Origin: a virus
Length of the DNA stretch: 64,000 bases
Strand: one strand, 5' to 3'
IMG/VR virus record: IMGVR_UViG_3300050139_000095
Location: 96,331-160,330 of that record
The notes below the pieces were generated by a model. The model was not told the origin of the DNA, made no database searches, and saw only the letters and a program-made list of their open reading frames with translations. A program made the position numbers and the translations under genes. Position 1 is the stretch's first letter; every line of letters begins with the position of its first letter. Shown piece after piece: positions 3,556-58,456 of the stretch.

Positions 3556-4050
3556 ATGAAATCGCTTTACTACATCGACATGATTTGGACTCCGCTGGTG
3601 GCGATCACGCTGATCGAGTTCCACCTGCGCACGTTCGGGTTCACTCCTACGCTGGCGTTTACATTCGCTGGCGGCGTGTTGCTGTGGACCTTCATGGAAT
3701 ATGTTATCCACAGAGTTCTCCACATCACGAGACATCCTGGGCACTTCAGGCACCATGCCTATCCCGTGGAACAGAACGGGCCGGGAGCATTGCAAACGAT
3801 CATCGTGATGGCGCTCATGTACGGAATTTTCCAATTGATTGGAGGATTCATATTCGCGTCAGGCTTCGAGGCGGGGCTGTTGAGCGGTCTCGCGGTCTAT
3901 CTTTTCGTGCATCATGGCATCCACCTGACCACCATCTTCCCGAATAGTAAGCTGCGGATTATGCATGAGAATCATCATGCAGGTATCGGCGAGGAAGTCT
4001 TCGGAGTCACGACCACCCTTTGGGATCGGTTGTTCAATATCTTTAAGTAG
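3556..4050 (+). CDS. fatty acid hydroxylase / sterol desaturase superfamily membrane protein, 164 aa
   Basis: ATG 3556 is chosen because ttggga lies just before it and the protein then begins MKSLYYIDM; a TTG at 3538 is possible. The histidine clusters of the di-iron membrane hydroxylase superfamily are present in order: HRVLH, HFRHHAY, a later HHGIH and MHENHH. They are interleaved with hydrophobic helices (about residues 10-50 and 85-125). Family members oxidise lipids such as fatty acids, sterols or carotenoids in the membrane. In a phage this would be an auxiliary metabolic gene altering host membrane lipid; the substrate cannot be read from sequence. One dispersed 14-bp palindrome lies inside at 3830-3843. 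Confidence 0.8.
   Translation: MKSLYYIDMIWTPLVAITLIEFHLRTFGFTPTLAFTFAGGVLLWTFMEYVIHRVLHITRHPGHFRHHAYPVEQNGPGALQTIIVMALMYGIFQLIGGFIFASGFEAGLLSGLAVYLFVHHGIHLTTIFPNSKLRIMHENHHAGIGEEVFGVTTTLWDRLFNIFK
3830..3843. repeat. dispersed palindrome copy 1 (TCCAATTGATTGGA)
   Basis: Exact match to TCCAATYRATTGGA, centre TG. It lies inside the coding sequence of the hydroxylase-like gene (encoding FQLIGG), so it is not obviously a promoter element. One of nine exact copies in the window. Confidence 0.75.
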
Positions 4051-4063
4051 TGTTCAATGGGCG

Positions 4064-4132
4064 ATGTCCATTGCAATTGAACTCGTGATGATCGCCATCT
4101 TCGTTGGCGTAATGCTTTACTTTGTCGGGTGA
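4064..4132 (+). CDS. possible membrane micro-protein, 22 aa
   Basis: ATG 4064 to TGA 4130-4132. The product (MSIAIELVMIAIFVGVMLYF plus VG) is almost entirely one hydrophobic helix. It sits exactly between the hydroxylase-like gene and the next membrane gene, and an atgggcg sequence precedes it. Several similar one-helix peptides occur elsewhere in this window, which makes it more credible. Confidence 0.4.
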   Translation: MSIAIELVMIAIFVGVMLYFVG

Positions 4133-4135
4133 TGA

Positions 4136-4354
4136 ATGACTCCATGGTACGCGGAAATGGGAATGCTTTGTATGTTGTTCCACATGTTGGAATCGCAGAT
4201 GAAGCCAATAGATCCTGACTGGTCGAAGATGCCAAATCCATTCTCCCAGCAATTCCAAATCGCTATGATGGTCGGCATAGCAATGCATTTGTTCTTGTGG
4301 CCAGTGGTTCTGTTTGCAAGACTATTTCTTTTGATCACGAAGGGTAAGTCATGA
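4136..4354 (+). CDS. hypothetical membrane protein, 72 aa
   Basis: ATG 4136, four bases after the preceding stop. The N-terminus is Met-rich (MTPWYAEMGMLCMLFHMLES). The C-terminal part (about 45-68, MMVGIAMHLFLWPVVLFARL) is hydrophobic and probably spans the membrane. The stop overlaps the next ATG. Function unknown. Confidence 0.55.
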   Translation: MTPWYAEMGMLCMLFHMLESQMKPIDPDWSKMPNPFSQQFQIAMMVGIAMHLFLWPVVLFARLFLLITKGKS

Positions 4355-4536
4355 AGACCGACGCAAGAACGCTATGTACAAACGAGGAGTGCGCGAAACG
4401 CTTTGACTGTTTCCGCTATCTTCAATATGCCAGTAAAGCGAATCAGTCACTTGGCGTTCAGAAGTTCAAGCCGAATAAGCAAGGCGACTGTTGGGTATTC
4501 CTAAGAAAGAAAGATGATGAGCCAGCTAAAGGATAA
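4351..4536 (+). CDS. small Cys-containing protein, 61 aa
   Basis: ATGA-coupled start. Contains LCTNEECAKRFDCFRY near the N-terminus, a Cys arrangement (C-x4-C-x5-C, with a later Cys in GDCWVF) seen in small phage proteins that may bind metal. Basic C-terminus. Specific function not recognised. Confidence 0.6.
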   Translation: MKTDARTLCTNEECAKRFDCFRYLQYASKANQSLGVQKFKPNKQGDCWVFLRKKDDEPAKG

Positions 4537-4846
4537 GGGCCACAACGCTCCGCCACCGCCACCGATTAAGAAGAAGAAATTCTCTGAGACCATGATCATT
4601 GATCTGGATAATCTTCCGGATTGGATGCGCAGGAACTTGGCCGGGCAATTGGAACTCGTGCCGGAGAGAATTAATAATCAGGTGGATCTTGATGCTGCGA
4701 TTGCGGCGGTTGACTTGATGGGTGGCGAACCGATTGATGCCGAGAGAAAGAAAGTTCTGTATCACATCGTTGCCAAGTCTAAATTGGTTCAGGCATATTT
4801 GCTGGCTGTGAAAGTTGACATGATGAAGAAGGGCGCAAAGAAATGA
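4514..4846 (+). CDS. hypothetical protein with proline stretch, 110 aa
   Basis: Starts at ATG 4514 or 4517 within the end of the upstream gene. A PPPPPIKKKK segment near residue 12-22 is followed by an acidic helical domain (DLDNLPDWMRRNLAGQLELV). The C-terminus is basic. The stop overlaps the next ATG. No family was recognised. Confidence 0.62.
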   Translation: MMSQLKDKGHNAPPPPPIKKKKFSETMIIDLDNLPDWMRRNLAGQLELVPERINNQVDLDAAIAAVDLMGGEPIDAERKKVLYHIVAKSKLVQAYLLAVKVDMMKKGAKK

Positions 4847-5163
4847 GCATGGGCGAAAAGCTAGGAACGCATTGGACTTTAAGGCTGATGCATTTATTCG
4901 ATTTGTTATTCGGCTACCGCAGAGTGGTCATGCTCCACAGCGTTGCCATAGGCGGGATGGTCCATGTGTGTTTGTGGGATAGAGGTTCAAAGAATGTCAT
5001 GTCCTCAATAGTGATGAAGCCAAAGGACGCGAAGGATTTTTTGAACGGGTTGGAATTAAACATTGATCGAGCGGAGATTTTCCACGGTGGGAACGGCAAG
5101 TCGGCGGCGACACAACAGGAAGACACGACGGCAACGCCGGGCGGTGATGAACTTCGGCAGTAA
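4843..5163 (+). CDS. hypothetical protein, 106 aa
   Basis: ATGA-coupled to the gene before it. About residues 8-45 contain moderately hydrophobic segments (LMHLFDLLFGYRRVVMLHSV), then a mixed domain and a polar Thr/Gly-rich tail. The end overlaps the start of the next small gene by 17 bases. Unknown function. Confidence 0.6.
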   Translation: MSMGEKLGTHWTLRLMHLFDLLFGYRRVVMLHSVAIGGMVHVCLWDRGSKNVMSSIVMKPKDAKDFLNGLELNIDRAEIFHGGNGKSAATQQEDTTATPGGDELRQ

Positions 5164-5296
5164 GGCCAAGCCGCGCCATCGTTCGGTAGCCGGGCGCACT
5201 GGAACGGCGCACAGCAAAACAACTCCAAAGAAATCTAACAGTGGGTATACATCCACGAAGACCTGGAAAGAAACTTTGCGAAGCCTATTTTGTTGA
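5147..5296 (+). CDS. small basic protein, 49 aa
   Basis: ATG 5147 preceded by gggcggtg. The product starts MNFGSKAKPRHRSVAGRTGT and is rich in Lys, Arg, Ser and Thr, like a small nucleic-acid-binding or ribosomal-type peptide. It overlaps the upstream gene by 17 bases in another frame. Upstream in-frame starts would create a longer overlap and are less likely. Confidence 0.5.
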   Translation: MNFGSKAKPRHRSVAGRTGTAHSKTTPKKSNSGYTSTKTWKETLRSLFC

Positions 5297-5312
5297 CTAG
5301 CGATTTTGTATT

Positions 5313-6074
5313 GTGTCTGATCTGGATTCGTTACGGGGGAAGTTTGTGGAAGGTTACATTCATACGAACTCTGGCATCCATGCGTACCCGCTGGACCTGA
5401 AGCCGGAGCAAGTAAATATCAATGACATTGCTCACGCGCTGGGACACCAGTGCAGATTCTCCGGCCACTGCGATTGGTTCTACTCGGTTGGCCAACACTC
5501 CTACTATGTTTCAGTGATCATCGAACAGCTTGGCGGGACGCCGATGGATCGTCTGTGCGGATTGTTGCACGATGCAACAGAGGCGTACCTTGTCGATCTC
5601 CCGAGTCCAATCAAGTGGCAGCTTCCCGAATACAAGATCGCGGAAGACAAAGCGATGGAAGCCATTTGCACGCACTTCAATTTACCAAAGAATCCGTTCG
5701 GCGAAGGCTTCACTGGCGAGCGAACGATGGCGGCCCAGAATACTTGGGCACTTGTGAAACAGGCTGACCTTATTGCGCTGGCGACTGAAGCGCGTGACCT
5801 GATGAAAAATCCTCCATGGGGAAAGAACCTTGGCCGTGGCATTGAGCCGATGGACTGGAAGATTGATCGCTGGAAGATCCATGACTCAGCTTCCGTGTTC
5901 CGTGCGCAATACTTTGCGCTGGTTGAAGAGATCACCGGGAACTCTGGCCGGATTTGGATTGATCGGATCAAGAAGGTTGGCAAGAGATTCGATCCGCGCC
6001 AGCCGCGAGCACAGATGACGAAGCTTCAAGATAGTTTAATGCCGAGCCTTCATGCGGCGGCGAAGGGACTCTAA
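5313..6074 (+). CDS. HD-domain metal-dependent phosphohydrolase, 253 aa
   Basis: GTG start at 5313, chosen because phage relatives begin a few residues before the conserved RGKF-type segment; a second GTG at 5343 follows a GGGGGA run. The HD motif set is visible: a His in CRFSGHCDW, YSVGQHSYYV, then LLHDATEAYL (HD) followed by DLPSPIK. Proteins of this phage family resemble YfbR-type 5'-nucleotidases, acting on dNMPs with a divalent metal. The next gene's ATG overlaps the stop (TAATG). A degenerate copy of the dispersed palindrome lies at 5606-5619 (12 of 14 matches). Confidence 0.8.
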   Translation: MSDLDSLRGKFVEGYIHTNSGIHAYPLDLKPEQVNINDIAHALGHQCRFSGHCDWFYSVGQHSYYVSVIIEQLGGTPMDRLCGLLHDATEAYLVDLPSPIKWQLPEYKIAEDKAMEAICTHFNLPKNPFGEGFTGERTMAAQNTWALVKQADLIALATEARDLMKNPPWGKNLGRGIEPMDWKIDRWKIHDSASVFRAQYFALVEEITGNSGRIWIDRIKKVGKRFDPRQPRAQMTKLQDSLMPSLHAAAKGL

Positions 6075-6298
6075 TGGAAGACTGGTTGCAATTATTCGAG
6101 TACGCGCATCTGAAGCCGGAACTCCAAGCGGCAAGCGCACCGTTCTGCGAACTCGCACGGCATGTGATCAAGGATTGGCCGGACAATCAGGAAACACAAA
6201 CGGCATTGAGAAAGTTATTGGAAGCAAAGGATGCGGCGGTTCGCGGGAAGTTCTTCAAGAAGAGAACGCAGATCGTTAATAATCCGGATGTTGATTAA
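6074..6298 (+). CDS. hypothetical protein, 74 aa
   Basis: ATG overlaps the last base of the HD-domain gene. Small soluble helical protein (QLFEYAHLKPELQAASAPFC near the start) of a type common in phages that carries no known catalytic motif. Basic stretch FFKKRTQ near the C-terminus. It closes this operon segment before a 169-base non-coding stretch. Confidence 0.65.
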   Translation: MEDWLQLFEYAHLKPELQAASAPFCELARHVIKDWPDNQETQTALRKLLEAKDAAVRGKFFKKRTQIVNNPDVD

Positions 6299-6467
6299 TT
6301 TTATGGGGAAGTCCTAGGCAACAGCGTGGAGATGCATTGAAGCGCCAGGTGCAAGATGAGTCTTAAAGGTGGCGATTGTCCGACTCTAGAACTTGTATCG
6401 CGTTGTGGATGGAGACCTTGCAAGGTTGTGGTATCGTAACCACCTTCTTCTTCACTTAAAGGGGAGA
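6299..6467 (+). promoter_or_regulatory. intergenic region with small dyad; possible 27-aa frame
   Basis: This stretch precedes a gene with a strong ribosome-binding site. It holds a dyad GTGGT-6 bases-ACCAC (about 6428-6443) and a short frame (ATG 6356 to TAA 6439, beginning MSLKGGDCPTLELVSRC) with a weak AGGTG ahead of it. No convincing -35/-10 pair was found. Probably a leader or promoter region. Confidence 0.3.
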
Positions 6468-12181: not shown

Positions 12182-12358
12182 GAACTGGCTCCCGATACGG
12201 TGGATGAAAAGTATATCGAATCTGTATACCGGCCATCATCCTTAAACCAGACATTTAAACGCGGCATGTAAAGATTTCATCTGTGTTCATTAAATAGCTT
12301 TTGATATTTCCAATCGATTGGAATACATCAATTCACTATATTTGAAATGGAGGTTCTG
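12182..12358. promoter_or_regulatory. divergent control region between response regulator and plus-strand genes
   Basis: 177 bases without a clear gene. On the minus strand, TATACT (12210-12215) is a candidate -10 about 29 bases before the regulator ATG, and gggagcc precedes that ATG. GTATA (12211-12215) and GTATAC (12224-12229) form a small dyad. The dispersed palindrome TTCCAATCGATTGGAA sits at 12308-12323, about 35 bases ahead of the plus-strand ATG at 12359, which has ggaggttctg. Probably a bidirectional promoter region. Confidence 0.5.
12308..12323. repeat. dispersed palindrome copy 2 (TTCCAATCGATTGGAA)
   Basis: A perfect 16-bp palindrome containing the 14-bp core TCCAATCGATTGGA, centre CG. 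It lies in the divergent control region between the response regulator and the plus-strand genes. Confidence 0.8.
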
Positions 12359-18494: not shown

Positions 18495-18508
18495 TCCAAT
18501 CAATTGGA
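18495..18508. repeat. dispersed palindrome copy 3 (TCCAATCAATTGGA)
   Basis: Exact core, centre CA. It is five bases after the stop of the preceding gene and directly ahead of ATG 18515. The following GGAGA of the ribosome-binding site overlaps its right arm, so a bound protein could block translation or transcription there. Confidence 0.8.
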
Positions 18509-22957: not shown

Positions 22958-23212
22958 ATGAGCAATAAAACGGTAGTGCGCGTCATAGGCGAAGTCATCG
23001 AGCCGGTGGACAATGGCGATCAGCTTTGTCTTCAAAAAGTTACTTATCAACACGGCAACGGCGAGAACGAAGACGGCTTTCGTTTCATTCGCAAAGACAC
23101 TGCCGGTCGCATGAAAGCGCAGCGTGGACAGGCCAACTGCATTTCTCTCGACATGATTAATTTGATGGTGAGCAAATGGAAAGTCGCGCACGGCGGAATC
23201 GCAGTTCCCTAA
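22958..23212 (+). CDS. hypothetical protein, 84 aa
   Basis: Preceded by ggaggacca and by a promoter candidate. Small basic beta-rich protein (MSNKTVVRVIGEVIEPVDNG then GFRFIRKDTAGRMKAQRGQA). Resembles phage-encoded small proteins of unknown role; no motif identified. Confidence 0.65.
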   Translation: MSNKTVVRVIGEVIEPVDNGDQLCLQKVTYQHGNGENEDGFRFIRKDTAGRMKAQRGQANCISLDMINLMVSKWKVAHGGIAVP

Positions 23213-23245
23213 ATTGGGTAACTGATTACCTAAATGGGGGAATGG

Positions 23246-23479
23246 ATGTTTGAAGTTACATCGTTAAATCAGTGTTGGTCTTGGCCGGTGGTTCTACTTG
23301 GTCCCGGCATTGAGATTTTTATGGTCGGGATTTTTGTGGGAGTAATGGGCAATCAGCTATTTGAATTCTTGCGCGTGCTGCGAATGATGAGGGCGCGGAG
23401 AAAGAATATCGTGGCGTCCATTGGCCAGACGGATTACATGCACAAACAATTCGCAGAGAAGGATCGCGAGCATGAGTGA
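23246..23479 (+). CDS. small membrane protein, 77 aa
   Basis: ATG 23246 follows GGGGGAATGG; an ATG 12 bases earlier would put the Shine-Dalgarno inside the gene. Residues about 14-38 (VVLLGPGIEIFMVGIFVGVM) are hydrophobic. The C-terminus is basic (RMMRARRKNIV). Overlaps the methyltransferase gene by 8 bases. Confidence 0.6.
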   Translation: MFEVTSLNQCWSWPVVLLGPGIEIFMVGIFVGVMGNQLFEFLRVLRMMRARRKNIVASIGQTDYMHKQFAEKDREHE

Positions 23480-24122
23480 CGATCATTTGTACCAGCCTTT
23501 GTTCAAGCCGGAGTTAGCCGACGAAGACTTCATGGAGATCGCCAATGTCGGCGCAGGTCTGACGCTGTTGAGTCCTGATCGAATGCACGTTCTCTACTCG
23601 ACTCTTCGCCACGTCATGCAAGCTAATTTGAAAGGCGAAGTGTGGGAGTGCGGAACTTATCGCGGCGGATCTGCGATGGTCATGGCCGCGTATCTGAAGA
23701 AGAATTACATCGCACAGCCGCTGGTGCTGTTCGATACCTTTGATGGAATGCCAGTTACCAACAAGGCAATCGACGAACACAACGAGGGAGATTTTGCTGA
23801 TACCGATTACGAGACCGTGAAAAAGAATTTGGATTATCCGTTCGCGGAAGTGGTGAAGGGATTTATCCCAGACACTTTCAAGGGCCGGGAGTTGGCACGG
23901 ATCTCGATGGCTCACATTGACGTGGACATCTACAATTCTGTCTTGGCGTGCGCGGAATTTATTTATCCAAGACTTTTGTGCGGCGGCATCATGATCTTTG
24001 ACGACTACGGATTCCCAACGTGCCGTGGAGCGCGGAAGGCCGTAGACGAATTTTTCAAGAATCGGATGAGCGTTCCAATCGTTCTGCCAACCGGCCAAGC
24101 TATTGTTTTTAAATCTATCTAA
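23472..24122 (+). CDS. TylF/MycF-family O-methyltransferase, 216 aa
   Basis: ATG 23472. GEVWECGTYRGGSAMVMAAY is the SAM-binding start (acidic E then GxxxGxS-type loop), VLFDTFDGMP and a later MAHIDVDIYNSV (HIDxDxY metal/substrate motif) plus IMIFDDYGFP are hallmark features of the macrocin/sugar O-methyltransferase group. These enzymes methylate sugar hydroxyls. With rhamnose genes at 62-64 kb it suggests decorated sugars, perhaps on virion or host surface. Confidence 0.85.
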   Translation: MSDDHLYQPLFKPELADEDFMEIANVGAGLTLLSPDRMHVLYSTLRHVMQANLKGEVWECGTYRGGSAMVMAAYLKKNYIAQPLVLFDTFDGMPVTNKAIDEHNEGDFADTDYETVKKNLDYPFAEVVKGFIPDTFKGRELARISMAHIDVDIYNSVLACAEFIYPRLLCGGIMIFDDYGFPTCRGARKAVDEFFKNRMSVPIVLPTGQAIVFKSI

Positions 24123-25024: not shown

Positions 25025-25309
25025 ATGCACCGTTGGTTTGTCGCATTCAGTTATAGAAAGAATCCAGAGGCCCCGGTCGCGTTCTCGAACTTGGTGTGCT
25101 CGACACCGGACGCTTATTTCAGCTTCGCACACGTTGCGCAGCGGATCGCGGATGACCATCAGTATTCCGATGTGCAAATCATAAACTGGAAGCAATTGCA
25201 GGAGATTGAGTTCTTGGCCTACGAAGGCTGGAAGTCGGATCATGGCGTGCCGCCGACTCGCGACGTTGAGCAAACCTTCGAGGGAGTAGTGCCTGACGAT
25301 TCCAATTGA
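25025..25309 (+). CDS. hypothetical protein, 94 aa
   Basis: ATG 25025 with agcggagattgtt upstream. Mixed alpha/beta (RWFVAFSYRKNPEAPVAFSN; later IEFLAYEGWKSDHGVPPTRD). The stop lies inside dispersed palindrome copy 4. Last gene of the 1-25 kb small-gene region. Confidence 0.6.
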   Translation: MHRWFVAFSYRKNPEAPVAFSNLVCSTPDAYFSFAHVAQRIADDHQYSDVQIINWKQLQEIEFLAYEGWKSDHGVPPTRDVEQTFEGVVPDDSN

Positions 25310-25314
25310 TTGGA
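25301..25314. repeat. dispersed palindrome copy 4 (TCCAATTGATTGGA)
   Basis: Exact core, centre TG; the TGA stop of the upstream gene (25307-25309) lies within it. It begins the control region before the large fibre-like gene. Confidence 0.8.
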
Positions 25315-31242: not shown

Positions 31243-31258
31243 TTCCAATCAATTGGAA
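31243..31258. repeat. dispersed palindrome copy 5 (TTCCAATCAATTGGAA)
   Basis: 16 bases, two matched arms of seven around centre CA; contains the exact 14-bp core. Located in the gap between two small genes, 44 bases before the next ATG. Confidence 0.8.
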
Positions 31259-32457: not shown

Positions 32458-33846
32458 ATGCGACTTAAAGAAGACCTAGACCTTTTCGGAATGCCACTGG
32501 TTGAAAAGTTCGACCGCGCTATCAAAACGATGGGTGGTAATTCAGTTGAGATTTTCAAGAATCCATCACGCCAGGAAATGAAAGAGATCGCGCAGCACAA
32601 CGAGGCTCGCGGGTTCCTGGTTGGCAATGATCTCTACGTTTGGAGCGCGACCGGAGCAATCCACCATCACGTAGCTGAAGAGATGAAGTTCCCGCGTGAT
32701 GCAATCGCGCTGAACATAGGTGTGCATACCGATGGTAAATCATATTGGGTGAACGTGTCCGACTGGAATGTTGGCGGCCCTTGGGATCACAATCCAAAGG
32801 TCAAAGAACAAATTCTAAATCATCCGATGCTGAAGTTGGTTCGTGATCGCGGTCCTGAGTTTGAGATCGGATACTTCGATGAAGCGATTGTCGGCGATTG
32901 GTCTGAGGCTGATAAGAAGGCAGTGGGCGAAGCTGGCTATCCGAATCCAGTTCAAGACTTCGATGACAACGTGGATGCAGTGAGAGGTCCAAAGCAAGCC
33001 AAGTTCGGCGAAGCCAAGGCTCCGAAGATAACCGTCAGTAAAAAAGATGACGAGATCAAAGTTGAAATGAAAGGCATCGGTAGCGCGAGCGGCCATGACC
33101 TATCAGACTTTGGATTCTGGTTTGAGAAAGAAGATGATGACGAATCACTTCCTCAGTACCACACGATTTTTATTTTCGAGCATTTGGAAGTGGATGCGAA
33201 ATATCAGGGGAAAGGTTATGGCCGTGAGTTGGTCATGGCCTTGATCAAGGAAGTAAAGAAGGCAAAGATCCCAGCGATATTCATGAACGCTTCGCCCATG
33301 GGAGCGCACAAGAGTTTGGATAAAGATGAACTACAAAAGTTTTACGAAAGTTGTGGCTTCAAGAATTACGAAGGTCATAGCGCCGGAGCCATCATGTATA
33401 TGGAACTCCAAAAGCAAGAGATGGCAGAGACGACTAACAAAACTCCTGATCAAGCGGATCTCGATTCGGCTTTTTCGGGCGTTAACCTGGAGCCTTACAA
33501 AGACGCCATCGACAAAGGGCAATACATTGAGATCCCTCTTAAGGATGCAAAGAAGATCCTGGTAATCCATCACAACACTTATGACGCTGATGTTGAAAAA
33601 TTCATGAAGGTCATGGCCGCAGATCCAATCGTTTTGTTTCAGGTTGGAAAGAAACTATACGCGCACGATGGCCAACACCGATTAAATTTTGCGATCAAGA
33701 ACAACCTTCCGTCGATCTCGGCGTATGTGATAAAGCTTGATCCGATTCATTTGGATGGCATGGAGAACGATGGAACTTTTGATCCTGATCGCAATGGATG
33801 GACTCGTGCCGACAGTCAACCTATACAGGTGGATGCGCCATGGTAA
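32458..33846 (+). CDS. tagged multi-domain protein: N-terminal tag, GNAT acetyltransferase-like, ParB-like end, 462 aa
   Basis: Residues 2-16 (RLKEDLDLFGMPLVE) form the tag shared with neighbours. About 25-165 is an unrecognised domain. About 245-310 has GNAT features: LEVDAKYQGKGYGRELVMAL (Q/R-x-x-G-x-G/A acetyl-CoA loop) and LQKFYESCGFKNY. The end (about 375-440) has KKLYAHDGQHRLNFA, a ParB/sulfiredoxin-like D-G-x-H-R core. Fusion of these domains suggests a chromatin- or DNA-associated effector. Overlaps the following ParB-like gene by 7 bases. Confidence 0.65.
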   Translation: MRLKEDLDLFGMPLVEKFDRAIKTMGGNSVEIFKNPSRQEMKEIAQHNEARGFLVGNDLYVWSATGAIHHHVAEEMKFPRDAIALNIGVHTDGKSYWVNVSDWNVGGPWDHNPKVKEQILNHPMLKLVRDRGPEFEIGYFDEAIVGDWSEADKKAVGEAGYPNPVQDFDDNVDAVRGPKQAKFGEAKAPKITVSKKDDEIKVEMKGIGSASGHDLSDFGFWFEKEDDDESLPQYHTIFIFEHLEVDAKYQGKGYGRELVMALIKEVKKAKIPAIFMNASPMGAHKSLDKDELQKFYESCGFKNYEGHSAGAIMYMELQKQEMAETTNKTPDQADLDSAFSGVNLEPYKDAIDKGQYIEIPLKDAKKILVIHHNTYDADVEKFMKVMAADPIVLFQVGKKLYAHDGQHRLNFAIKNNLPSISAYVIKLDPIHLDGMENDGTFDPDRNGWTRADSQPIQVDAPW

Positions 33847-34295
33847 AGAGGCTGACGGAAAATATTGATAGCTTTGGAATGCCTTTATTTGAAGCCAACA
33901 TTTCGGCTGATCAGTTGATTGATAATTGGGGAAATGCCCAAGGCGAAGATGACATGGCGAAAAGATTCCGCGACACTGGTTACGATTTTAACTCTTTGGT
34001 TCCGCATGTGATTGATCATTATGACGAATACAAAGAGACCATGATTGAGCCAAAAGATATTGCTCCGAATGCCGTTAAGTCTTGGCTTGATCCGATGAGT
34101 AAAGAAGAAGAAGTTTATGCGCAGGAGTATTCAAAGAAACCAGCGGAGACAGCGCCACCAGTTGTGTTGCGTCCGAGCACTAGCGGTGGTGGATATAAGT
34201 GGCAGGTAGTTGATGGGCGTCATAGGATACGTGCGGCGGCGATTCGCGGCGGCAAGGTGAAGGCCGCCATTCCAATTGGTAAATCAAAGGTGTGA
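33840..34295 (+). CDS. tagged ParB-like protein, 151 aa
   Basis: ATG 33840. Residues 2-16 (VKRLTENIDSFGMPLFE) are the shared tag. The C-terminal WQVVDGRHRIRAAAIRGGKV has the G-R-H-R core of ParB/Srx-type domains, with a V-K-A-A-I-P strand after it. There is no HTH segment like classical ParB, so it may be a nuclease- or CTP-binding-type fragment. Immediate neighbours carry the same tag. Confidence 0.6.
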   Translation: MVKRLTENIDSFGMPLFEANISADQLIDNWGNAQGEDDMAKRFRDTGYDFNSLVPHVIDHYDEYKETMIEPKDIAPNAVKSWLDPMSKEEEVYAQEYSKKPAETAPPVVLRPSTSGGGYKWQVVDGRHRIRAAAIRGGKVKAAIPIGKSKV

Positions 34296-35307: not shown

Positions 35308-36066
35308 ATGAAAAACATAATCATTGCCTTAATTGGCACAATCTTACTGTCATCTTGTAACCACACCAACAGCGCACCGGCTCCATCACCTTCAGTGGTG
35401 ACACCGGCTCCTGTACCGGCACCGGCTCCTACGCCGACGCCACCGCCCTCGCCCTCTCTCTTAGACCAAATGATTGCGAACGGAGTTCCTAAAGCCGCAG
35501 CGACTGAAGCTATGGCGAAGTACGCAACCTTCAAGAGCCGCGCCACCAACAGTGCTTGGCTTACGGTAATTGATTTTACGAAACCGTCAGGCCAAAAGCG
35601 GATGTACATGGTGAACACTGCGACTGGCGCTGTGACTGCGATCTATGTGGCTCACGGATCAGGATCAGATCCTAACGCCACCGGCACGCCGTACAAGTTC
35701 TCGAACATTCCCAACACACACATGTCATCACTCGGCGCTTACTTGGTGAGCGAGAAGTTCATGTTCGCCAACCATGGTGAGTCGATGAAGCTTGATGGCT
35801 TGGAGAATACGGATAGCCTTGTTCGTGAGCGCGGGATCTATATGCATCCTGCAACCTACGTGTCGGCTGGCCGCTCGAAGATGGGAATGAGTTGGGGTTG
35901 CTTCGCGCTCTCGACTACGGATATTGTTACGGCGCTCAGTCGTTTGTCTGGCGGAAGTTTTCTTTACGCTTATTCAACCGTGAAGAGTCAGTCGATGGAC
36001 AAACTCTTGAGTCCTGATTATCACTTCGTGAACGAGGGCGAAGGCGCTCCGCTCAACGGCGATTAA
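35308..36066 (+). CDS. lipoprotein murein L,D-transpeptidase-like (YkuD-type), 252 aa
   Basis: MKNIIIALIGTILLSSCNHT is a lipobox signal (LSSC). Residues 20-50 are a Pro-rich spacer. The catalytic part matches the murein L,D-transpeptidase domain: MYMVNTATGAVTAIYVAHGS, then ERGIYMHPATYVSAGRSKMG and SWGCFALS with the likely catalytic Cys in MSWGCFALS. Such enzymes crosslink or modify peptidoglycan or release its tails. In a phage this may remodel or protect the host cell wall. Ends four bases inside the convergent helicase gene. Confidence 0.75.
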   Translation: MKNIIIALIGTILLSSCNHTNSAPAPSPSVVTPAPVPAPAPTPTPPPSPSLLDQMIANGVPKAAATEAMAKYATFKSRATNSAWLTVIDFTKPSGQKRMYMVNTATGAVTAIYVAHGSGSDPNATGTPYKFSNIPNTHMSSLGAYLVSEKFMFANHGESMKLDGLENTDSLVRERGIYMHPATYVSAGRSKMGMSWGCFALSTTDIVTALSRLSGGSFLYAYSTVKSQSMDKLLSPDYHFVNEGEGAPLNGD

Positions 36067-37904
36067 TTTTTATCTTTACTGAAGTACGCGCCGAGCAAAT
36101 TGCTGGCGTCGTACTTGGAGATTTGTTCCATCGGAACATTTGAGAGTTTGAACTTCTTGATGAGCGCATATTGCTTTTCAGAACATCTCTCGCCCTTAGC
36201 TCTCTTCTTCCACGGCGCTTTGATCCACAGCAAGCGATCCCAATCCGGATACTGAGTCAGCATGTGATCTTCGATTTTCTTTGCAGCGTCAGGGCCATTG
36301 GCTCCACGGAAGGCAATGATTCGTTCGCCGGGGAAAGTGCGCGGGGCCGCGAGTGGCTTTCGCATCATGATCGAATCGAATCCGCCAAGGCCGTTCGGAG
36401 TGATGACAACCTGATACCTCATGCCGCTGTCCTTGTCTGAGTGGATCAGCTTGAGGTTCGTGCCGGAGCGGAAATACCGATAGCGTGAATCGAAATAGTC
36501 AGAGTTGTCATCGAAGGTTGAGTAGATGTCGTCGGCCACTTCTTTGACATCGCCAGGAGCGAAGCGCGGCTTTTCACCAGGAGCCAAACCTTTAGTGTTT
36601 GTTGGATTCGCACGCTCGAAGCGCAGCTTCATCTCGCTCCATGACGCGCAGTTGTAGGGGTTGAAATATTCTTTCTCGCCGATCATGGTGTCGGCCAAGT
36701 TCACACATTCGAGGAAGTCATGTCCTTCACAGTCGAAGTCCTGTCGAAAGTTAAAGATTTTTGCCACGGTTGCGGTCTTGTCCGAGTGCTCATCCACGAT
36801 CTCGACAATGTGAGCAACATCCTTTCCTTCCCACAAGCGCGTGGAGCGACCTGCAATTTGGGTGAGGAGAAGTTGGGACTTTGTAGGGCGTGCGTTGATG
36901 ATGAGATCGAGTTTTCCGTAATTAAAACCTTCCGTAAGAATCCCAAAGTTCGCCAGGATCTTCAGCTTTCCTGATTTGAAATCAGCGATAATTTTGCGGC
37001 GCTCTTCTTTGGGCATGTCTCCGGAGATCCCTTCGGCGGAAACTCCAATCGATTGGAATTGTTCGGTGAGCCGGAAGACGTGCTCAAGGTCGGTCGCAAA
37101 GATCAGGGCCTGTTTGTCTGGGAATCTTTTCTGCCAAGTCTCGACGATCAGAGTATTTCGTTCGACGTTATTGACGGCGGCGGCGAGGTCTTTAAGGTTG
37201 AAGTCACCGGCAGTGGTACGGACTCGTGCAAGATCGGTTTTAGAGTCCACGCGCCAGCTTACGATAGGAGCGAGGTACTTCTGCCTTGTGCCAGCCACGA
37301 TGTCCAGATTGAGCGCCACGCTGTCGAAGATGCCGGAGAGAGATTCGTCATCGGCCCGTTTGGGAGTCGCGGTCACGCCGACGATAAGAGTGCCGGTCTT
37401 CTCGGGATTGAAATAGGAGATCACATATTGGTAGGTGCTCGCGATGCAATGATGTGCTTCGTCAAACATGATCACGCCAAAATGATCGGGCGAGAATTTT
37501 GTGATCCGATTGCTGTTACTGCGCCCAATGGTTTGGACGGACGCGAGAACGACATGCGCCTGTTGGCTGGCTTCGCGGTCGGCTTGTTCAATTTCGATAA
37601 TGTAATCGGGACCGATAACGGCGGCGATTTCTTCGGCGGCTTGTTCGAGAAGTTCTTCGCGGTGAGCCACCATCATCACTGGCTTTTTAAGAACTGTCAG
37701 ACACCAAAGAGCGATAGCTCCCATGGTTGGAGTTTTGCCCAATCCAGTGGCCATGATGACTAGCTGACGCAGCGACTTACGTGCCTCGTAATCTTTGATG
37801 ATTTTTAATTTGGCCTGATCTTGGTACGCTCGCATGGTAATGACGCCAGGTCGCGGCGCTTGCGGCCACGCCATCGGAACCGAATCAAAAATCGACTGTT
37901 GCAT
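36063..37904 (-). CDS. SF2 DEAD/DEAH-box helicase, 613 aa
   Basis: Minus strand; ATG at 37904 follows taggggtacgggg, preferred over a longer start at 37949. Motifs: IMATGLGKT (I), LASVQTIGR (Ic), IMFDEAHH (II, DEAH), GVTATP (III), LIFATD (IV region), ANFGILTEGF (V) and QIAGRSTRLW (VI). The C-terminal region (about 430-613) is unrecognised. Resembles phage and bacterial RAD25/DEAD-type helicases for replication, recombination or transcription. Contains palindrome copy 6 within its coding sequence. Confidence 0.9.
   Translation of the reverse strand: MQQSIFDSVPMAWPQAPRPGVITMRAYQDQAKLKIIKDYEARKSLRQLVIMATGLGKTPTMGAIALWCLTVLKKPVMMVAHREELLEQAAEEIAAVIGPDYIIEIEQADREASQQAHVVLASVQTIGRSNSNRITKFSPDHFGVIMFDEAHHCIASTYQYVISYFNPEKTGTLIVGVTATPKRADDESLSGIFDSVALNLDIVAGTRQKYLAPIVSWRVDSKTDLARVRTTAGDFNLKDLAAAVNNVERNTLIVETWQKRFPDKQALIFATDLEHVFRLTEQFQSIGVSAEGISGDMPKEERRKIIADFKSGKLKILANFGILTEGFNYGKLDLIINARPTKSQLLLTQIAGRSTRLWEGKDVAHIVEIVDEHSDKTATVAKIFNFRQDFDCEGHDFLECVNLADTMIGEKEYFNPYNCASWSEMKLRFERANPTNTKGLAPGEKPRFAPGDVKEVADDIYSTFDDNSDYFDSRYRYFRSGTNLKLIHSDKDSGMRYQVVITPNGLGGFDSIMMRKPLAAPRTFPGERIIAFRGANGPDAAKKIEDHMLTQYPDWDRLLWIKAPWKKRAKGERCSEKQYALIKKFKLSNVPMEQISKYDASNLLGAYFSKDKN
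37044..37057. repeat. dispersed palindrome copy 6 (TCCAATCGATTGGA)
   Basis: Exact core, centre CG. Inside the helicase gene (codes for a QSIGV-type stretch on the minus strand), so a promoter role is unlikely. Confidence 0.75.
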
Positions 37905-38034
37905 CCCCGTACCCCTATGTGGTGTTCTGTGGTTGCTAACATACCACATGACAATGTGTAAAGCGGCTTGTAGGGTTTTTGGGATGAACGATTCGTATGT
38001 TATTCATCATGAGGTTTTAAAAAAGGAGAGCGCA

Positions 38035-39150
38035 GTGGATCTAGTTCAGTTGGATGACGAAGTTGTTAAGCAAGAAGAACTAAAGATCGAAGACACAAAA
38101 AAGGTGGCCGTTAAGTTCGGAATCCTTGGTTCCGGGCAAGCGGGAAATGCGCTGGCCGATTCTTTTTATTCCATTGGATACCGGCGCGTAGTCGCCATCA
38201 ATTCCACGGATCGCGACATGCAACGGATTCAAATCCCGGTCAGCAATCGTTATCTGTTGGGCGGCATCGAAGGCGCTGGGAAAGTTCCTGAGTCTGGTCG
38301 CAAAGCCACAGAGCGCGATTACGACGAGATCATGAAGGTCGTTCGCAAATCTTTCGGCAAAGACATTGATCATATTTTAGTTTGCGCAGGACTCGGCGGC
38401 GGCACTGGCGGCGGCTCGGTGAACATCCTTGTGGATCTCTGCCAGGAATATTTGGCTTCCATCGGCGTGTCTGATGTTGAAAAGAAAGTTGGCGTGATCG
38501 CCACTCTCCCTACCAAGGACGAAAGTTCGGCGGTTCAGCACAATGCACTCACCGGATTGAAGAGCCTCTTCGATCTCGCAGAGAAAGGTAAACTATCTCC
38601 GCTGATCTTGGTGGACAACGCGAGGGCGCTTTCTCTCTACGGCGGAGCGAGCGTCGTGGATGCATGGAGCAAAATTAATAGAAATGTTGTCGGAATGTTC
38701 GATTACTTCAACGTGCTCTCCGCAGCGAACGATTCTTCTGTGCATGTCACATTTGATCCCCAAGACTACAAAACCGTTCTTCAATCTGGAGTTATGACCT
38801 TCGGTCGCGCCATCATCGGCGGCTACGACGTTGGCGTGATCTCGGATGCAGTTAAACAGAACGTGAAGAAAGGTTTGCTTGTGGAGGATGTGGACTTCTC
38901 GCAAGCCACCCACGGCGCGGCCATTCTTCTCGGCGACAAAGAGTCGCTGTCAAAGATTTCACAGGACGCTTTGGAAGATGCGTTCGGGACACTGAATCGC
39001 ATGATGAAGCAAGGCAAGGGCACGAAGCTTCATCGCGGAGTGTACGAAGGCGGAAAAGATTGTTACGTGTTTACGATCATGTCCGGCCTTGGCCGACCAA
39101 CAAAGCGCCTTGCGGAAATCGAAGCTAAGGCTGGAAAGGCATACCCATGA
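38035..39150 (+). CDS. tubulin/FtsZ-superfamily GTPase, 371 aa
   Basis: GTG 38035 with AAAAAGGAGAGCGCA upstream is chosen over weaker upstream ATGs. GTP-binding features: FGILGSGQAGNALADSF (residues about 29-45) and the tubulin signature GLGGGTGGGS (about 119-128), then LILVDNAR and a long helical C-terminal part (FDYFNVLSAANDSS; MKQGKGTKLH). Phage tubulins (PhuZ, TubZ-like) form filaments that centre or segregate phage DNA or nuclei. Length 371 fits such proteins. It is followed by a coupled one-helix membrane peptide, and the opposite strand carries the helicase. PhuZ or TubZ assignment needs tree placement. Confidence 0.88.
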   Translation: MDLVQLDDEVVKQEELKIEDTKKVAVKFGILGSGQAGNALADSFYSIGYRRVVAINSTDRDMQRIQIPVSNRYLLGGIEGAGKVPESGRKATERDYDEIMKVVRKSFGKDIDHILVCAGLGGGTGGGSVNILVDLCQEYLASIGVSDVEKKVGVIATLPTKDESSAVQHNALTGLKSLFDLAEKGKLSPLILVDNARALSLYGGASVVDAWSKINRNVVGMFDYFNVLSAANDSSVHVTFDPQDYKTVLQSGVMTFGRAIIGGYDVGVISDAVKQNVKKGLLVEDVDFSQATHGAAILLGDKESLSKISQDALEDAFGTLNRMMKQGKGTKLHRGVYEGGKDCYVFTIMSGLGRPTKRLAEIEAKAGKAYP

Positions 39151-40187: not shown

Positions 40188-40201
40188 TCCAATTGATTGG
40201 A
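40188..40201. repeat. dispersed palindrome copy 7 (TCCAATTGATTGGA)
   Basis: Exact core, centre TG. In the gap between the methyltransferase and the terminase, about 26 bases ahead of the chosen terminase start; a TTG in the same reading frame lies within it. Confidence 0.8.
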
Positions 40202-44063: not shown

Positions 44064-44771
44064 ATGAAACAGATCATTGAGTCAAAGAGCCTTGAGAAAT
44101 TACTCGAAGGTTCCGATGAACAAAAGCTGCACAAGTTCGATCAGATCCTTTCTGAGTCGAAGATCAAACGCATTGCAACATTCGACAAGTACGTGATCGG
44201 CTTGAAAGAGTCAGGCGAGATCGTGCGCGTGGTGATCGTTGAAGGCAAAATCCTTTCGACGGCGATCATGCCCATCCAGTTGGCAGAAGAAAAAGCTGGA
44301 CCAACCGCAGTCCGTTCAATGGTCGAGTGGTGCATCGGCGGCGCTCTTCCCGATGAAGACCAGTTCGCAGAATTCTTGAATCAAATCTCGACCAAAGAGG
44401 CCAAGCTTTCCATCGCTGAGAAAAAGCTGGATAAGTTTTTGGCCGCAATGCCCAAGCCCAAAGAAGAGTGGGTGAAGACTTTTGGCGACAAAGTGGAATC
44501 TCTCCAATCAATTGGACAAGCTCTTGATCATTTATCCGCCATTGCACAAGTGGCGGAAAGAGTATCCGTTACGCAAAGTATGGGCAAAGCCATCTGTGAA
44601 CACGCGGCTGTCTTTGCACAACCGTTAGGCACAGTGGTAAGCACGTTGCGCGATGTTTTGGGTTCAGGCGACCAAGTTGGTGCCAACAAATTCATGGAAC
44701 AATTTGGTTCGCACTGGCAGAATCTTTGTATCACTGGTCAGTTCTTGAAGAATGTAGGCGAGGTCAAGTAG
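44064..44771 (+). CDS. hypothetical head-module protein, 235 aa
   Basis: ATG with ggaaagggaagtt upstream. Starts MKQIIESKSLEKLLEGSDEQ, resembling the tag K-Q-I-x-E-S but without the FG-P part. The remaining part is helical, including LSIAEKKLDKFLAAMPKPKE. Located between portal and the 2,222-aa protein, so it is likely a prohead core or packaged protein. Contains palindrome copy 8 within its coding sequence. Confidence 0.65.
   Translation: MKQIIESKSLEKLLEGSDEQKLHKFDQILSESKIKRIATFDKYVIGLKESGEIVRVVIVEGKILSTAIMPIQLAEEKAGPTAVRSMVEWCIGGALPDEDQFAEFLNQISTKEAKLSIAEKKLDKFLAAMPKPKEEWVKTFGDKVESLQSIGQALDHLSAIAQVAERVSVTQSMGKAICEHAAVFAQPLGTVVSTLRDVLGSGDQVGANKFMEQFGSHWQNLCITGQFLKNVGEVK
44503..44516. repeat. 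dispersed palindrome copy 8 (TCCAATCAATTGGA)
   Basis: Exact core, centre CA, inside the 235-aa head-module gene (codes for LQSIGQ). Intragenic location argues against a simple operator role. Confidence 0.75.
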
Positions 44772-54391: not shown

Positions 54392-55903
54392 ATGGAACAA
54401 CGTAATCTTCAGGAAATGAAGAATGATCTCTCCGCTGATAGCTTTGTAAAAAGCCCCCAGCGGCGAGCACTGATCGAGCGATGGCAGAAATGGATTCCGA
54501 AGACAGTCGGCAACGACTATCAGAAGTATTGCCTCGCAACACTGTTTGAAAATCAACTCTCGGAGTTGAAACAGTTCAAAGAAAAACATTTGATGGGTGA
54601 AGACACCACTACGGCCAACACCGCGCCGTTCATCAAGTACACTTTCCCCTTGCTCCGCCGCGTTTGGCCAGCATTGATTGCTCCGGAAATTGTATCAGTC
54701 CAACCGATGACCGCTCCCGTTGGCGCGATCTTCTACTTCGAGTTGAAGTATGGACAAGCTAAAGGCTCCGTAGCCAATGGCGACAAATTAGTGGCGAATT
54801 TCAATCGCTATTATTCTTCACAATATATTGACGGTGAAGCCAATGTTTCGGTGAACGGAACGGCACAGGCATTCACTCTCGCTTACATCCCGGTTCTCCC
54901 GAACACGGTGAAGATCACTACCAGCTTGTCTGGCATTGGTCCCTTCGTGGACAACGGTTCTGGTTTGTTGAGCGGTCCTGGTTTGGCTTCGGGCACTGTC
55001 AACTACGTCACTGGCGCGGTTGCATTGGTGTTCTCGGCGAATCCCGGCGCTGGTGCTGCAATGACCAGCTTTTATCAGTACAACAACGAGGCGAACTCTT
55101 TAGTTCCCACGGTCTTCATCGACATCGCGCTTGTCAGCGTGACCGCACGAAGCCGCAAATTGAAAGCACTCTGGAGTTCAGAGGCCGCTGACGATTTGAA
55201 GGCTCTCCACGGTATCGACGCTGAACAAGAATTGGTGTCTGGTGTGGGTTCGGAATTGGCTCTTGAGATCGACCGCGAAATCATCGAAGACTTGCGCCTT
55301 GGCGCGAGCGGTGGAACTGCGGCTTACGATCTGACCACTCCCGCAGGTTTCAAACAACGCGACACCATCGTTGCGATGTTGACTCAACTCACGCTCTTGT
55401 CGAACCAAATCGGCAAGAACACTTTGCGCGGCCCCGCAAATTGGATCGTGATGGGTTATGAATTGGCCGCTTACATCGAGCAACTTGGTCTTGATGGTTT
55501 CTTCCGCCCTGTGTTCGCCGGAAACGCCGAAGCACTGTCAGCGGCTGAAGCTCCTCAGACTTGGGGCGTGATGAAGATGGGAACTCTCCAACAACGCTGG
55601 ACCTGTTACAAAGATCCTTATCTGACCACTGGTCTGCCCAGTTCCGCTGTGGCAATCATGGGTTATAAGGGTTCGAGTTTCGTGGATGCCGGTTATGTGT
55701 GGGCACCATACGTCCCGTTGCAAGTCACTGCAACCTTCCTCGATCCGAACGATTTCCGTTTCCGCAAAGGCTTGCGTACTCGTTACGCCAAGTTGATGGC
55801 TCGCACGGAGTTCTTCGGCAAGATGAATGTCACAGGCATCAACGCCCTGACCAGCACTGTGTCCTCAACGGGACCTGTCGCTGCCGGTGTGTTGAACTTC
55901 TAA
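54392..55903 (+). CDS. major capsid protein (gp23-like), 503 aa
   Basis: Strong aaggagagggacaca ribosome-binding site. Sequence such as PFIKYTFPLLRRVWPALIAP, then TARSRKLKALWSSEAADDLK, ALHGIDAEQELVSGVGSELA and LEIDREII match the T4 gp23 HK97-fold major capsid family. It may be N-terminally processed by the prohead protease. Followed by a terminator, in line with high expression. Confidence 0.92.
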   Translation: MEQRNLQEMKNDLSADSFVKSPQRRALIERWQKWIPKTVGNDYQKYCLATLFENQLSELKQFKEKHLMGEDTTTANTAPFIKYTFPLLRRVWPALIAPEIVSVQPMTAPVGAIFYFELKYGQAKGSVANGDKLVANFNRYYSSQYIDGEANVSVNGTAQAFTLAYIPVLPNTVKITTSLSGIGPFVDNGSGLLSGPGLASGTVNYVTGAVALVFSANPGAGAAMTSFYQYNNEANSLVPTVFIDIALVSVTARSRKLKALWSSEAADDLKALHGIDAEQELVSGVGSELALEIDREIIEDLRLGASGGTAAYDLTTPAGFKQRDTIVAMLTQLTLLSNQIGKNTLRGPANWIVMGYELAAYIEQLGLDGFFRPVFAGNAEALSAAEAPQTWGVMKMGTLQQRWTCYKDPYLTTGLPSSAVAIMGYKGSSFVDAGYVWAPYVPLQVTATFLDPNDFRFRKGLRTRYAKLMARTEFFGKMNVTGINALTSTVSSTGPVAAGVLNF

Positions 55904-55920
55904 TCTGGACTCGTCCAGAT
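55903..55920. promoter_or_regulatory. perfect inverted repeat at capsid stop codon
   Basis: ATCTGGAC-TC-GTCCAGAT, arms of eight bases, begins with the last base of the TAA stop. As RNA it can form CUGGA/UCCAG around a CUCG tetraloop. It may stabilise the mRNA 3' end or assist the adjacent terminator. Confidence 0.5.
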
Positions 55921-55930
55921 GTAGAAACGA

Positions 55931-55962
55931 AGGGGACTGCGAAAGCGGTCCCTTTTGCTTTG
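55931..55962 (+). terminator. Rho-independent terminator after major capsid gene
   Basis: GGGACTGC (55933-55940), GAAA tetraloop, GCGGTCCC (55945-55952), one G-U pair, then TTTTGCTTT. A classic intrinsic terminator, placed just after the most abundant structural gene. Confidence 0.85.
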
Positions 55963-56014
55963 TTGAAACCCCACTTAACTCATGATGTACTTGTGATTGA
56001 CACAGGGGGATTTA

Positions 56015-56677
56015 ATGAGCCGGTTAGAAGAACTGAAAAAAGAAATGCACAGCCTTGAAGAACGCTTTCTTGAAAAAGAAGGGCAGCATTTAAGCGCGAT
56101 TTTAGATCCTAGCCGAATCCCCACGGACATGGCGGCACTCGCATCACTTGAACAAGGCCGCACCGATACACCTGATGGTTCATTGCCAGGCAACGACAAC
56201 ACAGAAGTTCCAAAGCCAAAGGCTCCAGGCGAAAAAGAAAACGACGACAAAGAGCCAACGGACGAAAAAGAACCTAGCGACGATGTGACCGAAGAAGACA
56301 TCAAGCAAATGAGCGCGGAAGAAGTTAAAGAAAGTCTTGGCCTCGCTCTTGAAATTGCTTTTGAATGCGTTGAGAAAGCGCACATGATCTTGAAAGCTTT
56401 GACTGGCGGTCAAGGTGAAGCTGATCTCAAGGATGTCGTTGACAAAGAAATGGTTGAAAAAGCCAATGACGTAGCCGAGGAGTACATCGAACTTGTTGAG
56501 TTGATGGAAGAGATCGAGGGCGACAATGAACCTGAAGATGATGGCGATGCTGATGATGCAGACGCAGATGACGACAAACCTGCCGACGATAAACCAGCCG
56601 ACGAAAAGCCCGAAGACAAACCCGAAGCCGATGACAAATCCGATTCAAAGGATGAAGAAGAACCGGAAAAGGAATAG
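56015..56677 (+). CDS. acidic head-module protein, 220 aa
   Basis: ATG 56015 with CAGGGGGATTTA upstream; an earlier in-frame start lies before that site. The N-terminal 35 residues are a coiled coil (RLEELKKEMHSLEERFLEKE). The C-terminal 60 residues are nearly all Asp, Glu, Lys, Ala and Pro (DDKPADDKPADEKPEDKPEA). Likely a disordered acidic protein near the capsid gene; role unknown. Confidence 0.65.
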   Translation: MSRLEELKKEMHSLEERFLEKEGQHLSAILDPSRIPTDMAALASLEQGRTDTPDGSLPGNDNTEVPKPKAPGEKENDDKEPTDEKEPSDDVTEEDIKQMSAEEVKESLGLALEIAFECVEKAHMILKALTGGQGEADLKDVVDKEMVEKANDVAEEYIELVELMEEIEGDNEPEDDGDADDADADDDKPADDKPADEKPEDKPEADDKSDSKDEEEPEKE

Positions 56678-56681
56678 GTAA

Positions 56682-57434
56682 ATGTCGAGTCTTAGCAAGG
56701 GAACAATGATCAAGATGATCATCACCGAACTTGGTGGTGATCCGGACGCTTTGCCGACTGACGCAACAGTTGATGTTGAAATCACTGCGGGTCAGTTCAA
56801 GACGGCGTTCACTCGGACCATGATGTGGTTCACGGCCAAAAAAGGTTTCGTCGTCCTGCGCCCTGTTCCCATCTCAGACAATCAGACTGAATATAAAATG
56901 AAGGACGACGTAGCCAATGTGCTCGACGTTATGTTCGAGGTTCCGTCAGATGTGGCGGCCTTTTTCTCTCTAGGATTTTTCGATTTGATTCCATACGGGC
57001 CACAGTCGATTGGAAATTTAGGCTCAAGCTTGGCCAACTATTCTGGCTTCGCGCAGCTTTTGAATTTCAATCAGAACCGCAAGGACGTTTTCTCGGTCAC
57101 GCCCGACTGGTCATATCAGCAACAGACCAAGATTTTGAATGTGCTAATTCGTCCAGGCGCAGCGACAAATTTCATCATCGCACAAGTGAAGCTGAACACG
57201 TTCGACGTTGCGTCACTCGACGACAAGGATCAGGATATTTTCTATCGGTACTTCCTAGCGCGTAGCAAGATCACCCTAGGCCGCATCCGCTCGAAATACG
57301 ACAGTCTCCCTGCGGCTGGCGGAACGGTAACGCTGGACGGGCACACGCTTATCGAAGAGGCCAACGCTGAGATCGTAGAATTGAACAAAGAAATTTTCGC
57401 AAGCCAAGGGCCAGACTTGCCGGTGGTGGGATAA
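56682..57434 (+). CDS. putative neck / head-completion protein, 250 aa
   Basis: ATG 56682. Helix-rich N-terminus (KGTMIKMIITELGGDPDALP), a central DLIPYGPQSIGNLGSSLANY segment, and C-terminal YFLARSKITLGRIRSKYDSL with LDGHTLIEEANAEIVELNKE. This pattern appears in virion assembly proteins of large myoviruses near the capsid (gp13-like adaptors). Assignment by position and general pattern; weak. Confidence 0.55.
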   Translation: MSSLSKGTMIKMIITELGGDPDALPTDATVDVEITAGQFKTAFTRTMMWFTAKKGFVVLRPVPISDNQTEYKMKDDVANVLDVMFEVPSDVAAFFSLGFFDLIPYGPQSIGNLGSSLANYSGFAQLLNFNQNRKDVFSVTPDWSYQQQTKILNVLIRPGAATNFIIAQVKLNTFDVASLDDKDQDIFYRYFLARSKITLGRIRSKYDSLPAAGGTVTLDGHTLIEEANAEIVELNKEIFASQGPDLPVVG

Positions 57435-58456
57435 TGGATTTTGAAAAGACACTCGGACTTGATCCGAACACAAAAGATGCCCGTCATAATGGTCTTAAAA
57501 AGGACAGTTATGATGAGTCCAAGATCACAACCGACCTAAAGGCGGCTGTTGAGGATTTTACGGTGAATCCAGACGCCCAGCGCACGCCGCCGTTGCCGGA
57601 GTTCGATTATTTATTTACCAATTGGCCGGACAAGAATCCGTCAGAGAAACCTTTCAAGGCCAAACCCTCCAATCAATTGGACAAAAATATTTCCAGCGCA
57701 CCGGCCAAGAAAGTCGCCAAACAAGAGTCGGAACTGACTCCTGAAGAACAGGCTGTGCTCAAGCGTTGGGAAGAGATGAAGGTCGCTCCTATCGGAGAGG
57801 GCGCGGTGAAGAACCGCTTTGAGAACTCTATGCGCAAGCTGAATAAAAAGCCGTGGCAGGAGTGGGGCAAGCTTGAATGGAAGATTGCTGGCCGCGTGAC
57901 GAAGCATGAGACGGTCACGGATGAACCTGAAGAAGAGAAGAGACCGCAGCAAATATTTTCGATCAAACCTCTTTTGGCGAAGGTTGCACCGGAGAAGTCC
58001 GAGTCAATCAATCGATCCAAGAGTAAGTCCTTGGTCGAGATGCAGTTTCTCGACTTCCTTTTCAAGAAGGCCATGACCACGGCGCACGCGAAGCCTGAAA
58101 AGGAAGAGGGATCAAATTCGGTCTACACTCGGATCAATGACATAGTGTCCAAGACCTTGAAGCCCTTTGGCCTAAAGGCTACCTCGCCCAAGAAGTACGA
58201 TGACGCCGATGTGATGGGGATCAATTACCAAGTGAAGATCGGCAAAGAGTCTTACGCAATTCATACATATCTCCTCAAGGGCAATAAGGTATTCATGTGT
58301 TCCATTTGGGATAAAGAAGAAAACCGTTTATTATTGACGTTGAGTGAGGGATATTTAAGGCAATACTACTATCTTGTCGGAATCGGTAAAGAGCGGCTAA
58401 GATCATGGATGGAGCAAACACATGGAAAGTCCGAATCAGGAAAAAATCACGGGTAG
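57434..58456 (+). CDS. hypothetical head-module protein, 340 aa
   Basis: ATG 57434 overlaps the upstream stop (TAATG). Charged N-terminal half, C-terminal domain (about 215-325) with globular pattern (VYTRINDIVSKTLKPFGLKA; YQVKIGKESYAIHTYLLKGN). Palindrome copy 9 lies inside. No family recognised. It overlaps the next gene by 35 bases. Confidence 0.65.
   Translation: MDFEKTLGLDPNTKDARHNGLKKDSYDESKITTDLKAAVEDFTVNPDAQRTPPLPEFDYLFTNWPDKNPSEKPFKAKPSNQLDKNISSAPAKKVAKQESELTPEEQAVLKRWEEMKVAPIGEGAVKNRFENSMRKLNKKPWQEWGKLEWKIAGRVTKHETVTDEPEEEKRPQQIFSIKPLLAKVAPEKSESINRSKSKSLVEMQFLDFLFKKAMTTAHAKPEKEEGSNSVYTRINDIVSKTLKPFGLKATSPKKYDDADVMGINYQVKIGKESYAIHTYLLKGNKVFMCSIWDKEENRLLLTLSEGYLRQYYYLVGIGKERLRSWMEQTHGKSESGKNHG
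57668..57681. repeat. dispersed palindrome copy 9 (TCCAATCAATTGGA)
   Basis: Exact core, centre CA, inside the 340-aa gene (codes for SNQLD). Confidence 0.75.

Follow-up and report, generated by a model that had tools for sequence, protein, structure and literature searches.

Dispersed invariant palindromes of phages, for example those of Corndog, have been on record since 2015 without a binding protein. In Corndog and the other cluster O mycobacteriophages these are 17-base-pair (bp) dyad repeats, TGTTCGG-N3-CCGAACA, with more than 30 unoriented copies over the genome, partly intergenic and partly genic, of unknown function and in phages that are not obviously temperate (PMC4351075), while the dispersed stoperators of cluster A mycobacteriophages, many of them in short gaps, are asymmetric and oriented with transcription (PMC4351075). 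In bacteria MatP recognizes matS, a dispersed 13-bp target of which the 800-kb Ter domain of Escherichia coli contains 23 copies (PMC3330122), and ParB and Noc recognize palindromes of 14–16 bp (parS and NBS) by a helix-turn-helix (HTH) region that sets specificity, where ParB residue R173 contacts guanine 1 of parS (PMC7383237). The present analysis concerns a 14-bp palindrome, TCCAATYRATTGGA, scattered over a 64,000-nucleotide stretch (the window) that comprises bases 96331–160330 of the 160,330-bp virus record IMGVR_UViG_3300050139_000095, window coordinates being counted from its first letter. With a probability of about 60%, the copies are predicted, on sequence grounds, to be sites of an HTH protein of the phrog_17202 family with a mainly genome-scale role.

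The sites and their spread were obtained by computation. The window contains nine exact copies, all at the positions read in an earlier note made from the letters alone, against 0 expected in 100 dinucleotide shuffles, and the whole record contains 21, with 0 for the reversed-pattern control, so the claim of an excess far above chance holds. Unbiased scanning for palindromes whose half-sites have 5–8 bases ranked TCCAAT-N2-ATTGGA first in the genome by a wide margin (21 versus 0.03 expected). The central dinucleotide keeps to the three forms noticed in the window, TG (9 of the 21 genome sites), CA (8), and CG (4), and is never TA, while the half-sites are flanked by a pyrimidine in 37 of 42 cases and by A in none. 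The palindrome is nearly all-or-none in this genome, with 21 exact copies and 4 carrying one mismatch; the imperfect copies pointed out at 5606 and 17648 deserve little weight, because 8 window matches with up to two mismatches were found and 4.1 (standard deviation 2.0) are expected. About 90% of genes of this phage, a distant T4-like myovirus with a capsid ~30–33% identical to those of known phages, are on one strand, yet the site centres are unbiased. An RNA hairpin was rejected on the absence of loop bias and of strand bias and by the invariant stem without compensatory change.

The division of the window copies into five intergenic or gene-end and four genic ones was borne out, and none of them has a strand. 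Two intergenic copies, TCCAATCGATTGGA at 12309..12322 and TCCAATCAATTGGA at 31244..31257, have symmetry extended to 16 bp, as had been noticed; two others are TCCAATCAATTGGA at 18495..18508, immediately past a stop codon, and TCCAATTGATTGGA at 40188..40201, while TCCAATTGATTGGA at 25301..25314 lies over a stop codon and provides the TGA of gene 25025-25309. The genic copies are TCCAATTGATTGGA at 3830..3843 (gene 3556-4050), TCCAATCGATTGGA at 37044..37057 (helicase gene 36063-37904, minus strand), and TCCAATCAATTGGA at both 44503..44516 (gene 44064-44771) and 57668..57681 (gene 57434-58456). The sites are ~3–7 times enriched in gaps and gene ends compared with random placing, others lie deep in genes, and their orientation is independent of gene orientation. 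The spacing, which the earlier note had proposed to check for regularity, is more even than chance (minimum 2106 bp, p 0.0013).

The array shares with Corndog the invariant palindromes over the whole genome (21, control 0) and the lack of orientation to transcription, and differs from it in sequence and spacer. It resembles the cluster A stoperators in being dispersed, with sites in gaps, but is a perfect palindrome with unbiased centres, strand-neutral instead of asymmetric and transcription-oriented. The proposal of a dispersed organizing site, not a simple operator, is supported by the strand neutrality, the over-dispersed placement, and the presence of the site in other phages but not as a bacterial feature. 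By sequence, however, the parS or matS part of that proposal did not hold: the site, TCCAATYRATTGGA, is neither of parS type (TGTTTCACGTGAAACA) nor the matS sequence (GTGACRNYGTCAC), and matS occurs only within a single domain of a bacterial chromosome.

IMG/VR yielded eight contigs whose capsid is related. Among them G007 (134,619 bp) has 16 sites and four smaller contigs have 1-2 sites each, the capsids of site-bearing relatives being ~65–70% identical, while G005 (149,291 bp) has zero. The copy at window 37044 is retained in place by both G001 and G007, where the surrounding DNA is only 66–67% identical, and the copy at 44503 by G006 (77% identical), but for one site of G006 the window phage has no equivalent; sites turn over among relatives. 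In the IMG/VR 14-mer scan the matches listed were mostly contigs with one chance copy and included G030 (102 kb, 20 sites, or 63 copies of TCCAA-N4-TTGGA with the centre relaxed) and G038 (94 kb, 12 sites), whose proteins share only ~20–33% identity with those of the window phage. Scans with 16-mers added the G038 relatives G100, G103, G107, G110, and G102 and the phi29-like contig G106, which carries 19 copies in 15 kb and has no clearly recognizable protein in common with the window phage. In the G038 group several sites occupy the same gaps between orthologous genes. An alternative genetic code in gene-poor gaps of G030 was not supported, and a literature search for the exact sites gave nothing relevant.

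In cultured phages related to G038 or G106 no TCCAA-N4-TTGGA was found at all; in the cultured G038 relatives the architecture is kept but the second base is different (TGCAA...TTGCA). This sister site occurs as 27 copies of TGCAATNNATTGCA in DLP5 (0.002 expected), 15 of TGCAANNNNTTGCA in RHph_Y1_11, and 16 of GCAATNNATTGC in LV6, with 8 sister-site copies in RcZahn, while neither site class stands out in Astrithrvirus relatives of G106. The even spacing is repeated in G030 (minimum-spacing p 0.0003) and DLP5 (0.0005; coefficient of variation 0.48 versus 0.96 for random placing), with similar results for G038 and LV6, and the central step is pyrimidine-purine (YR) in 214 of 234 sites (91%), which suggests a bend or kink.

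Since relatives and very distant phages carry the palindrome while bacterial genomes show chance copies, it is to be regarded as a phage feature. In a GTDB scan of 84,980 species genomes GTCCAATCAATTGGAC was found in 70 stretches versus roughly 120 expected for a 16-mer (our own estimate from the collection size), with 1-5 copies in each genome that has it, and the sister site was not enriched in 15 mostly proteobacterial genomes. A host chromosome motif of Chi or KOPS type was therefore rejected, and the comparison with a host genome that the earlier note had called for, made here with bacterial genomes at large, came out on the side of a phage element. A Chi-, KOPS- or nucleoid-type factor common to the hosts of these phages might have explained why unrelated phage types have exactly the same site and why phages of different hosts differ in site class, but given these same counts this explanation is close to refuted. 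Two bacterial multi-copy cases were unrelated: in Candidatus Viridilinea (L342, L362, L374, L381) a dispersed intergenic repeat happens to contain GTCCAATCAATTGGAC, and in Prevotella (L331 4370-4560, L388 2800-2900) there is a 22-bp tandem minisatellite of GTGTCCAA-N4-TTGGACA units between genes. The Bacillota contig G137 (L407, WQVM01000004.1), which has a serine recombinase, carries two copies 687 bp apart, both within one gene (L407 15215-16012) related to the phage HTH family, to G038_11 and to the window phage's gene described below.

That gene lies outside the window at genome 71545-72573 and encodes an HTH protein of 342 amino acids that matches the phrog_17202 profile with E 7.8e-19. 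The family, with unknown function in PHROGs (35 of 36 aligned members match phrog_17202), was found in lineages A, B, B', and C as well as in G137, and is encoded in every large motif-bearing genome; in Rhodobacter phage RcZahn the gene is at 58369-59586, and the DLP5 protein is ATS92308.1. In G030 the gene (22974-24029) was recovered by six-frame hidden Markov model search, the in-house caller that supplied the gene predictions having overlooked it and thus one gene or more. The smaller lineage A contigs are fragments ending before this gene, so their sites cannot be paired with it. A first search for proteins common to the motif phages yet absent from G005 gave nothing useful. In Pfam four members match DUF3102 weakly, the window phage's protein falls just under the cut-off, and no ParB_N/CTPase domain was detected. 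An AlphaFold2 model has a low-confidence N-terminus followed by a well-predicted helical HTH region, and the C-terminal part may, judging by sequence, be ribbon-helix-helix-like.

Two computational results, the excess of upstream sites and a one-column split with the second base of the site, are the reason for naming phrog_17202 as the binder. Eighty IMG/VR loci encoding the family were fetched, and in 1.41 Mb pooled around the family gene TGCAA-N4-TTGCA was counted 249 times (reversed control 2) and TCCAA-N4-TTGGA 20 times (control 0). Among the 37 loci with at least three sites, 19 have a site within ~300 bp upstream of the phrog_17202 gene (3.4 expected, p ~5e-9), usually at 70–120 bp, and among 20 further query genes from these loci none came close, a helicase scoring best (p 0.047); the gene looks autoregulated in many phages. 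Exactly one alignment column has disjoint residues between the site classes, with Arg in 41 of 41 proteins paired with G and Ser or Thr in 5 of 5 paired with C. This is residue 114, which in the AlphaFold2 model comes second in the recognition helix (113-128) that follows the turn, and the contact of ParB R173 with guanine gives a precedent for an Arg/G code. The Ser-type G038 (TCCAA) is sister to the Arg-type L432 and L433 (TGCAA) with 88% support in the Shimodaira–Hasegawa-like approximate likelihood ratio test, an apparent joint switch of residue and site; all four independent phylogenetic pairs agree with the code, as do both pairs on well-supported branches. In L466, L468, and L507 further site classes, GGCAA-N4-TTGCC and CGCAA-N4-TTGCG, accompany an Arg-type protein, which may allow further parts of the recognition code to be read.

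It can be proposed that a phrog_17202 dimer would read the two half-sites T[C/G]CAAT and would need the flexible YR step in the middle, a probable point of DNA bending, and that the protein would control its own gene in many phages. Occupying some 10 to 60 evenly distributed sites, it may anchor condensation, bridging or segregation of the replicating genome, with a logic like that of ParB, Noc or MatP but probably no kinship to them. Such anchors would fit the even coverage and an HTH protein that seems to regulate itself and whose gene lies near those for replication and recombination. Clustering at promoters would be expected of operators; because the sites ignore gene orientation and are evenly spaced, a role in genome organization or segregation is favoured over operators. 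Binding, bending, and genome organization by the phrog_17202 protein are what we infer from these data. The broader suggestion, somewhat short of an even chance, is that phrog_17202 and an evenly dispersed palindrome co-evolving with it in the T[C/G]CAAT code may form an undescribed phage-wide organizing system, found in myoviruses and siphoviruses and perhaps also in phages of the phi29 type. As the viral counterpart of ParB, Noc or MatP, it would structure or segregate the phage genome during replication.

Several observations weigh against this proposal. On the tree the co-variation comes down to no more than 4 to 5 changes, too few for a tree-aware sign test to reach 0.05. The site-less G005 has a phrog_17202 ortholog with Thr at the key residue, several Arg-type loci have none or few sites in 20 kb, and gene 1 of G106 matches the family weakly (hhalign E 0.016). 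The site nearest to the gene is 2.9 kb away in the window phage and 0.9 kb in G007, with none just upstream of it. In Foldseek search against PDB there was no significant match, the ParB and SopB DNA-binding domains standing at E above 1 (6t1f, ParB DNA-binding fold, probability 0.75 with E 1.9; 2ntz and 3mkz weak). The different site sequence and the lack of a Pfam ParB_N/CTPase match set the system apart from ParB and Noc. Finally, the genome-organizing role is read from just spacing and strand neutrality.

Silencing and partition are the serious rivals. As in cluster A mycobacteriophages, the phrog_17202 protein might act as repressor on an array that serves to silence the phage genome in the manner of stoperators or a regulon; the enrichment of sites in gaps and gene ends, the apparent autoregulation, and the report that DLP3 and DLP5 are temperate and DLP5 a phagemid (PMC7326821) speak for it. 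Nevertheless this is unlikely, since the sites are palindromic and unoriented to transcription, many are deep inside genes and evenly spaced, the gene is located in a replication-recombination module near RuvC and RecA, and G106 belongs to a kind known as lytic. Alternatively, the sites, the HTH protein, and a separate ParB_N or TubZ-like partner might form a dispersed centromere, comparable to the scattered centromere sites of N15, that partitions the prophage outside the chromosome. This is taken seriously because DLP5 was isolated as a phagemid with two ParB-domain proteins (PMC7326821), and the window phage encodes both possible partners: a ParB_N domain protein at genome 73312-74121 (L008 13312-14121), a few genes from phrog_17202, with orthologs in G007, G005, and G030, and a TubZ-like GTPase with orthologs in G007 and G005. 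The occurrence of both genes in G005, which is without sites, and the lack of a partner gene shown to track the sites across lineages make a centromere less probable still than silencing. A different conserved protein of the phage (primase, RuvC, RecA or helicase) might read the sites in replication, recombination or packaging. This would agree with the presence of the corresponding genes in lineages A, B, and C, but is highly improbable, as these genes have no upstream-site signal and G106 yielded no relatives of them.

The proteins of the window that had been suggested as binders are not supported, and none of the three has an ortholog in the motif-bearing G007: the product of 32458-33846 (+) carries a GNAT acetyltransferase domain and is not ParB-like, that of 33840-34295 has no family match, and that of 2119-2937 shows only a weak Recombinase domain. 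The tubulin-like GTPase, in turn, was correctly recognized and is TubZ/PhuZ-like (window 37984-39150 (+), PF00091 2e-11, TubZ-like_C 2e-5).

What is new compared with the Corndog-type repeats is a nominated candidate binder together with a code of one residue and one base, which can be tested in cultured phages whose hosts are tractable; the tblastn matches of the family included no mycobacteriophage. If true, the proposal would offer an entry point to genome organization and segregation in large phages and a set of orthogonal protein-DNA pairs. Separately, Acinetobacter phage Phanie (L429) has a marginal CRP-site-like repeat, GTGA-N8-TCAC, five times in 11.9 kb, and the window phage encodes a PAPS reductase-family protein at genome 41021-41815 (-) (L007 1021-1815) in a short minus-strand cluster.

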